In this document: positions 6,364 through 41,378 of the stretch, one piece after another
Position numbering within the stretch: position 1 is the stretch's first letter
Layout of the letters: each line of letters begins with the position of its first letter
NCBI RefSeq assembly: GCF_009363695.1
Contig: NZ_CP045403.1
Location: forward strand, 1,592,001 to 1,656,000
Direction: 5' to 3'
Origin: Bacillus sp. THAF10
GTDB taxonomy: Bacteria; Bacillota; Bacilli; Bacillales; Bacillaceae_I
Length of the DNA stretch: 64,000 nt
The notes under the pieces: model-generated
Seen by the model: only the letters and a program-made list of their open reading frames with translations
The model's database searches: none
What the model was told of the DNA's origin: nothing
Program-made: the position numbers and the translations under genes

Positions 6364-6441
6364 AACTTTGTTGCACCTGCGTATAGTTAAGACACCCGTA
6401 ATCAACGTTGCAGTCGTGCTGTTTTCGTGGAGGTAGTTTTA
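6364..6441 (+). repeat. Dispersed repeat, copy R1 (partial)
   Basis: Truncated copy of the dispersed family. It carries the block ACTTTGTTGCACCTGCGTAT and the block GCAGTCGTGCTGTTTTCGTG, but not the terminal inverted repeat at its left end or the right half of the element. It lies between the ylaH operon and the convergent membrane gene. Confidence 0.8.
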
Positions 6442-7213: not shown

Positions 7214-7409
7214 AAAGGCTGTTTCGTAAACTTTGTTGCTACTGCGAATAGCTAAGACAAACATAATCAACGATGATGTCGTGCTCTTTTCGAGGAAGAA
7301 GATTTAGTCATGTGACAATTTTTCTTCGGATAAAGATTGGAAAAAGCCTTAAAGCCGACTTTTTCCAAGTTAATCACAACAATCAATCTTTTAGAAAAGA
7401 GCCTAAAAA
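7214..7409 (+). repeat. Dispersed repeat, copy R2 (full length)
   Basis: About 196 bp. The left end AAAGGCTGTTTCGTAAAC and right end ATCTTTTAGAAAAGAGCC form imperfect terminal inverted repeats. Inside are the TTTGTTGCTACTGCG block, the GTCGTGCTCTTTTCG block and a hairpin GGAAAAAG ... CTTTTTCC. It contains no plausible gene. It occupies most of the divergent gap between ylaI and the FMN-binding protein gene. Confidence 0.85.
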
Positions 7410-15833: not shown

Positions 15834-15915
15834 AAAAGGCTGCTTTCGTAAACTTTGTTGCTACTGCGCCGATTTATTTCAGGCTAATAGCAACAATCTT
15901 TTAGAAAAGAGCTAA
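15834..15915 (+). repeat. Dispersed repeat, copy R3 (internally deleted)
   Basis: About 82 bp retaining both ends: AAAGGCTGCTTTCGTAAAC with TTTGTTGCTACTGCG on the left, and GCAACAATCTTTTAGAAAAG on the right. The central part present in R2 and R5 is missing, which is typical of an internally deleted non-autonomous element. Confidence 0.85.
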
Positions 15916-24180: not shown

Positions 24181-24341
24181 TTAGCTCTTTTCAAAAAGAT
24201 TATTAAGATTTTTTCCAGTCATTATACGAAGATAAGTTGCCATATATATGATAATTACTCCACGAAAAGAGCACGACAGCAACGTGGATTACATGTTGCT
24301 TAACTATACGCAGTATCAACAAAGTCTGCGATAACAGCATG
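24181..24341 (-). repeat. Dispersed repeat, copy R4 (inverted)
   Basis: About 161 bp in opposite orientation to the other copies. Read on the minus strand it has the left end GCTGTTATCGCAGACTTTG, the ACTGCGTATAGTTAAG block, GTTGCTGTCGTGCTCTTTTC, the GGCAACTTATCTTC block, and the right end TTTTTGAAAAGAGCTAA. The central hairpin is degraded. It fills the convergent gap between the DUF420 gene and the AI-2E family gene. Confidence 0.85.
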
Positions 24342-40749: not shown

Positions 40750-41151
40750 TTGGTAAATAGTGAGCAAATCATCTTATTTGATGGTGTTTGCAATCTCTGC
40801 AATTCGGCAGTGACGTTTGTAATTAAAAGAGATAAAAATGAAGTCTTTAAATTTGCATCCCTGCAATCAGAAGCTGGAAAAAAGCTTCTAAGAAACAAAT
40901 TCAATGCAAATGAAGAGTTTAATAGCTTTTTCCTCGTGCAAGGAGATAAAATCTACGATAAATCATCAGCCGCTCTTTATGTTGCCAAGGCATTAAACCT
41001 GCCATGGAAGTTTTTGTTTCCACTCATTCTTATTCCAAAACCTCTTAGAGACATGGTGTATTCTTTTATAGCAAACAACAGATACAAGTGGTTTGGAAAA
41101 AGTGAATCCTGCATGCTTCCAAGCCCAGAGCTAAAGAACCGATTTTTATGA
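40750..41151 (+). CDS. DCC-family thiol-disulfide oxidoreductase-like protein
   Basis: A 133-aa protein of the DCC family (DUF393, YuxK-like), named for the DxxCxxC motif, here DGVCNLC at residues 10-16. The thioredoxin-like core suggests a redox role, but the substrate is not known. TTG start at 40750 behind GGGAGGGAAAGG. Its stop codon lies at the first base of dispersed repeat R5. Confidence 0.88.
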   Translation: MVNSEQIILFDGVCNLCNSAVTFVIKRDKNEVFKFASLQSEAGKKLLRNKFNANEEFNSFFLVQGDKIYDKSSAALYVAKALNLPWKFLFPLILIPKPLRDMVYSFIANNRYKWFGKSESCMLPSPELKNRFL

Positions 41152-41342
41152 AAGACTGTTTTCGTAAATATTGTTGCACCTGCGTATAGATAAGCATCTT
41201 GTTATCAATGTTGCTGTCGTGCTCTTTTCGTGGAGGAAGCTAAAATATGTGGCAACTTTTCTTCAAATAATGAATAGAAAAAGTCTTAATGCCGACTTTT
41301 TCTTAGGTTTTTTGCAACAATCTTTTAGAAAAGAGCTTTATG
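41151..41342 (+). repeat. Dispersed repeat, copy R5 (full length)
   Basis: About 192 bp. Left end AAAGACTGTTTTCGTAAA, right end ATCTTTTAGAAAAGAGCTTT (imperfect inverted repeats). Internal blocks: ATTGTTGCACCTGCGTATAG, TTGCTGTCGTGCTCTTTTCG, GTGGCAACTTTTCTTC, and a hairpin GAAAAAGTC-TTAATGCC-GACTTTTTC. ATG occurs directly on both sides, a possible 3-bp target duplication. Starts at the last base of the DCC gene. Confidence 0.88.
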
Positions 41343-41378
41343 AAAAAATGCTATCACAGTAGTGGTGATAGCATTTTG
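41343..41378. terminator. Terminator between repeat R5 and ylbP
   Basis: AAAAAATGCTATCA-CAGTAGTGG-TGATAGCATTTT, between convergent genes. Confidence 0.85.

Follow-up and report, generated by a model that had tools for sequence, protein, structure and literature searches.

What is the short repeat that recurs five times along a stretch of Bacillus sp. THAF10 DNA, and what has multiplied it? In the 64,000 nucleotides analyzed (positions 1,592,001 to 1,656,000 of NZ_CP045403.1; hereafter, the window), the original prediction had marked five related noncoding segments, R1 to R5, and had proposed a MITE or a bcr/REP-type element multiplied by a transposase encoded elsewhere. Following this up, we find a high-copy MITE family with IS1595-type ends, wide in its reach and mostly ordinary, and we conclude that R1 to R5 are very probably copies of one ~184-bp Sutcliffiella MITE that an IS1595-family transposase would have multiplied in trans. 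The conserved interior of the element, a core and a hairpin, is not what one expects of a plain MITE. The genus is that suggested by pyruvate carboxylase (PycA): it shares 92 to 93% identity with its counterparts in Sutcliffiella horikoshii (two records), Bacillus sp. CHD6a, and Bacillus sp. RO1 and no more than 81% with any of the other 76 loci listed, which would place the window in Sutcliffiella.

RESULTS

Five window copies of one element with inverted ends

Alignment and direct reading bore out that the five segments belong to one repeat family, with R5 and R2 as full copies (184 and 187 bp), R4 inverted, and R3, R1, and R4 shortened. R5 is a complete MITE on the forward strand (41154..41337); neither of its ends departs from the end pattern at more than one position, and its core has no mismatch. 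Its left terminal inverted repeat lies at 41154..41177 (forward) and its right one at 41314..41337 (reverse), each with one mismatch, and the same 8-bp target duplication, TTATGAAA, can be read immediately outside both (41146..41153 and 41338..41345). Within it lie, on the forward strand, a conserved 20-bp core, GTTGCTGTCGTGCTCTTTTC (41210..41229), which contains GCTCTTTTC, and a hairpin with A/T tracts (41276..41303), supported by pairing counts, that is terminator-like on both strands in a consensus scan. R2 (7217..7403, forward) is full length with small indels, and its flanks match at seven of eight positions, as do those of R4 (24183..24339, reverse; 157 bp), which retains both ends and is missing a portion of the hairpin. 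R3 (15838..15913, forward; 76 bp) carries both ends with at most one mismatch each, has its middle deleted, and shows flanks matching at six of eight positions. R1 (6364..6441, forward, outer limits approximate) is a fragment without either tip, whose core has one mismatch at 6413. The predicted imperfect inverted repeats were confirmed at the ends, GGCTGTTTTCGTAAACTTTGTTGC versus GGCTCTTTTCTAAAAGATTGTTGC forming one imperfect 24-bp inverted repeat, and between the ends of R2 to R5 no transposase is present. The consensus length of the element is 184 bp.

A fixed 8-bp target duplication in sampled genomic copies

Further copies, anticipated elsewhere in the genome, were found by BLAST and by scans for the core and end patterns. 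With 40 of its 223 candidates scored, R2 gave at least 43 matches to its own genome. A scan for the core, GTCGTGCTCTTTTCGTGGA, that allowed three mismatches gave 71 + 59 = 130 matches (reversed control, 1), a number that counts matches to the core motif and is not a census of copies, and the end pattern with at most one mismatch gave 84 + 84 = 168 (control, 0). Such numbers show that the resemblance among the segments is no accident. We then examined the flanks of 79 copies with both ends (131 to 199 bp), drawn from 84 loci of the genome plus the window; as these loci were the best BLAST matches, the core places among the matches listed, and two transposase relic loci, the sample favors core-bearing copies. 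Agreement between the flanks peaked at exactly 8 bp (0.771 versus 0.489 in shuffled flanks, z 16.8), with lower z values for flanks of 7 bp (6.5) and 9 bp (5.0), and the 8-bp flanks were perfect in 26 of the 79 copies and had at most one mismatch in 37. Hence, the target duplications that the prediction had asked to be defined have a fixed length of 8 bp in this sample, and these duplications together with the scattered sites indicate transposition. In a three-copy array the neighbors have one 8-bp spacer in common, TTTTCATA, and in a two-copy array the spacer measures 7 to 8 bp, depending on where the last base of the element is placed.

Among 40 well-preserved copies (178 to 190 bp, at most six end mismatches), the median pairwise identity was 82.5%; of 776 pairs at distant sites, 4 exceeded 95%, the closest reaching 97.8%. 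Such divergence is compatible with a spread in several waves, most of them not recent.

IS1595-family transposases between the same ends

The suggested search for an insertion sequence with the same ends led to IS1595-family transposase elements in related bacteria. An end search of plasmid records returned 13 and 18 records, and one of the eight regions read had the ends around a transposase. This Niallia plasmid element (L086:4004-5768) is 1765 bp long, has the same ends with TTTTTAAA at both flanks, and encloses an annotated IS1595 family transposase together with a DinB family gene (DinB/MST-type). Used as a query, its transposase found a match in 49 of 101 related genomes. Among 30 transposase loci fetched, 8 had an end pair 0.9 to 2.0 kb apart with flanks matching at seven or eight of eight positions, a combination absent from the other 22; at 17 loci no end pair was seen. 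Counting the Niallia plasmid element, the flanks match at all eight positions in six cases (with L092, L093, L094, L103, and L116), at seven in L091, L105, and L107, and at six in L100, while the end pairs of L106, L109, L110, and L119 have flanks that match at only two to three. The four best matches to the query (L091 to L094, 56 to 81% identity) all have the end pair and L097 to L099 (41 to 42% identity) are without it, a pattern that is consistent with ends and enzyme having evolved together.

The family assignment is supported by profile searches, in which PF12762 and NF033547 scored above cut-off in all four partner transposases tested, as did NF050000 for the zinc-binding N-terminal domain; Pfam's PF12760 was below cut-off in two of the same four and gave no report in the other two. 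Target duplications in the IS1595 family are described as usually 8 bp long (PMC8101967), and for its member ISEc69 an 8-bp AT-rich target is reported to be duplicated (PMC7835479). Further elements with the same ends carry, besides the transposase, an alpha/beta hydrolase gene (L092:1422-3430) or open reading frames without a Pfam match (L093:1413-3222 and L091:971-2582), and with their differing extra genes these elements and the Niallia one look like gene-shuttling transposons. Short motifs of the MITE interior, sought in 11 element loci, revealed no clear common interior.

Decayed transposase genes in the host genome

A PF12762 profile search of the genome of the window gave no match, and no intact IS1595 transposase was found there. 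A protein search detected two relics. One, ~50% identical across 92 residues and with six stops, adjoins an end with two mismatches; the other, 73% identical across 48 residues, adjoins a sequence that resembles an end but has four mismatches. As only these two decayed pieces were found, the MITE seems to be an orphan in its own genome. Transposase remnants were also noticed by eye in three of the loci (L083, L087, and L089). Another genome of the genus, G014, has two open transposase copies; one was examined, and each end of its flanking pair deviates from the pattern at three positions. Given the relics and these deviating ends, the cognate enzyme of the MITE was not found.

A conserved core and hairpin

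To compare interiors within the genus, 31 copies were collected by similarity to R2, five longer than 188 bp were dropped, and the remaining 26 were aligned with 20 copies from the host genome. Between this species and the others, mean identity (gaps counted as differences) reached 0.89 and 0.88 at the two ends, 0.86 in the core, and 0.69 in the hairpin, and the three spacers scored 0.53, 0.36, and 0.58. Comparing the other species with one another gave 0.83 for the core, 0.82 for the hairpin, and 0.39 for the long spacer. Between species, the core is thus kept nearly as well as the ends, the hairpin is also kept, and the long spacer is nearly random. The same order holds within the genome itself, with 0.961 for the core and 0.929 for the hairpin versus 0.839, 0.834, and 0.747 for the spacers, a difference that none of 10,000 permutations equaled. 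The core carries the terminal-repeat tip, GCTCTTTTC, oriented like the left end.

Because the genus copies had been found through similarity to R2, we sampled one genome, G015, by its ends alone. An end pair was present in 27 of 30 loci, at 25 distinct places, and 22 of these contain the 15-base core with at most three mismatches (shuffled interiors: mean 5.5 to 6.9, lowest 3). Of the remaining three places, two have short elements and the third has an element whose core lacks one base. Three G015 loci (L281, L296, and L305) represent a size class of 210 to 211 bp, alongside the usual 181 to 184 bp.

As to the hairpin, the terminator consensus scan found two terminator-like matches in R5 versus 0.5 in shuffles. 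Across the 46 aligned sequences, 94.7% of the hairpin cells are paired, and one of the hairpin's pairs reads UA in 24, GC in 17, and AU in 1. For ends and hairpin together, the numbers of paired cells and of cells with two-sided change and the covariation score exceeded those of all 500 shuffles, with no excess in pairs showing two-sided change (6 versus 5.5 in shuffles) or in further pair types (21 versus 21.7). A control slid by two positions (+2) still gave 19 two-sided-change cells versus 25; kinship without structure can produce such values. RNAalifold on the 46 genus copies returned a weak consensus (-3.18 kcal/mol, three pairs with two-sided change). No Rfam family matched the element, either in the window at the gathering threshold or in eight loci at E values up to 0.1. 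The same searches located a ylbH leader RNA elsewhere in the window (RF00516, 32171-32300, 107.8 bits) and, outside the element, a match to the Bacillus sRNA ncr1241 (RF02451, L035:2821-2885).

Gene context

The original prediction had placed four of the five copies between convergent genes. The ORF list agrees for the window (R2 is the divergent one), and genome-wide this placement is not enriched by gap count. Using simple ORF calls, we obtained the gene context of 69 copies, of which two lie inside an ORF and one has no neighbor. The 66 usable copies comprise 18 in convergent, 13 in divergent, and 35 in co-directional gaps, compared with 25, 30, and 46 of 101 background gaps. Enrichment in convergent gaps was therefore rejected by count (18 of 66 versus 25 of 101, p 0.67). 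Judged by gap length, copies show a weak excess in convergent gaps (p 0.031) and a deficit in divergent ones (13 of 66, p 0.0006), the latter not clear by count (p 0.08). In co-directional gaps, 25 copies run opposite to the genes and 10 in the same direction, a skew inflated by the counting of tandem arrays and reduced to ~22 versus 10 after these were collapsed by hand. The intergenic location most likely reflects the loss of harmful insertions together with an AT-rich target.

Distribution across genomes

Across the order, 150 of the 299 genomes sampled carry ends with no more than one mismatch (reversed control: three matches in all), and the richest genome has 373 ends; by hand count, 49 genomes have at least 20 and 15 have at least 100. 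A narrower pattern, which requires the core and one half of the hairpin to match exactly and at the correct spacing, occurs in 8 of the 299 genomes, all of the window's genus, that is, in 1 of 116 genera, and several other genera have the same ends around differing interiors. At L040, L044, L045, and L048 (genomes G035, G047, and G041), the same ends enclose an interior like CTTTCCGCGGG ... CCCGCAGGAGTC, which we take to resemble a common Bacillaceae repeat. Genome G044 has 199 ends, most of which, among the matches listed, are the identical 24 bases; this uniformity suggests a young burst there.

In the regions orthologous to the surroundings of R1 to R3 in S. horikoshii (two records) and CHD6a, a scan that misses fragments revealed no end pair, and the R3 gap is filled there by ~2 kb of other DNA; the R4 site lies beyond the aligned stretch. 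Among 80 named PycA loci, an end pair occurs in one and an end with at most one mismatch in four. Whole-element searches with R2 against plasmids and with R5 against phages found nothing; four viral contigs have one exact end apiece, and no convergent pair was seen in them. A core scan of named genomes, a set from which near records were possibly left out, found none. A search of titles and abstract starts in the open-licence literature, which does not establish absence from print, did not find the family, and no occurrence of the two end strings was seen among the papers listed.

DISCUSSION

We propose that an IS1595-family enzyme would bind the 24-bp ends and move or copy the miniature element, that insertion at a staggered cut would duplicate 8 bp of an AT-rich, mostly intergenic target, and that an autonomous partner was presumably once active in this genome and later decayed. 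Such cross-mobilization is what we infer from features read directly: the inverted ends, the copy number, the 8-bp duplications, and, in relatives, IS1595-family transposase genes enclosed by these ends and by duplications of that length. The predicted multiplication by a transposase encoded elsewhere is supported to this extent, by inverted ends, 8-bp duplications, and transposase elements with the same ends.

A transposase of another family that makes 8-bp duplications could in principle have moved these MITEs, with ISL3 as the first candidate. Members of the ISL3 family have GGCT-type ends, and this end tip and their duplication length are similar to those of the element. Against this, the ISL3 profile PF01610 has no match in the host genome and none in 14 of the 17 genomes searched, several of which are rich in ends, and at the 10 ISL3 loci fetched from the remaining three, no convergent end pair surrounds the gene at up to five mismatches per end. 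Some of the 10 have single ends or MITE-like pairs nearby. As no ISL3 transposase was found flanked by these ends, ISL3 is disfavored as the partner, and we regard this origin as very improbable. Even harder to credit is that the element is a bcr1-type repeat. The copy number is alike, up to 130 bcr1 copies being given for one strain (PMC6542083), but the same source ties bcr mobility to TTTAT motifs, whereas the targets here are variable AT-rich 8-bp sequences, so that the two are set apart by description. Of the two alternatives first proposed for the element, the MITE thus stands, on its ends, duplications, and same-end transposase elements, and the bcr/REP type fits less well.

The conserved interior raises a different possibility, namely that the repeat is now a regulatory sequence of the host, kept because its hairpin works as an RNA element or terminates transcription in both directions. 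Its core and hairpin are kept across species around a long spacer at 0.36 to 0.39 identity, the R5 hairpin is terminator-like on both strands, and the hairpin is extensively paired among the aligned copies. However, the 8-bp duplications and scattered sites speak for transposition, the preference for convergent gaps is absent by count and weak by length, the consensus RNA fold is weak and lacks an Rfam match, and selection for transposition would account for the conservation as well. We consider a host regulatory repeat unlikely and retain the IS1595-mobilized MITE as the preferred reading. For the core, selection for transposition and an effect on the host both fit. As a tentative suggestion that we think has the odds against it, core and hairpin may be working modules that have preserved the ~184-bp layout as species diverged and the remainder changed, either raising transposition of the miniature form or acting as a mobile two-way terminator that insulates neighboring genes. 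If true, Sutcliffiella would have turned a derivative of IS1595 into a structural repeat found throughout the genus.

Overall, these results point to a likely mobilizer of intergenic repeats that form a large class in Bacillales-type bacteria, and they supply a motif and a partner transposase family with which to annotate them. They also raise the question of why a miniature element retains an interior for which its transposase has no known need.

Compared with known systems, the similarity to bcr1 of the Bacillus cereus group, judged by description only, lies in a similar copy number within the Bacillaceae (PMC6542083). With IS1595 insertion sequences, the window element shares the 24-bp ends and the 8-bp AT-rich duplications of the transposase-bearing elements, but it is geneless, has another interior, and resides in a genome where no intact transposase was found. 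Bacterial MITEs are described as derivatives of insertion sequences moved in trans (PMC3852290). Like them, the element is short, encodes no plausible protein, has IS-like inverted ends and direct repeats, and occurs in many copies; unlike them, it shows no visible remains of an IS interior and instead carries a genus-specific interior with two conserved modules.
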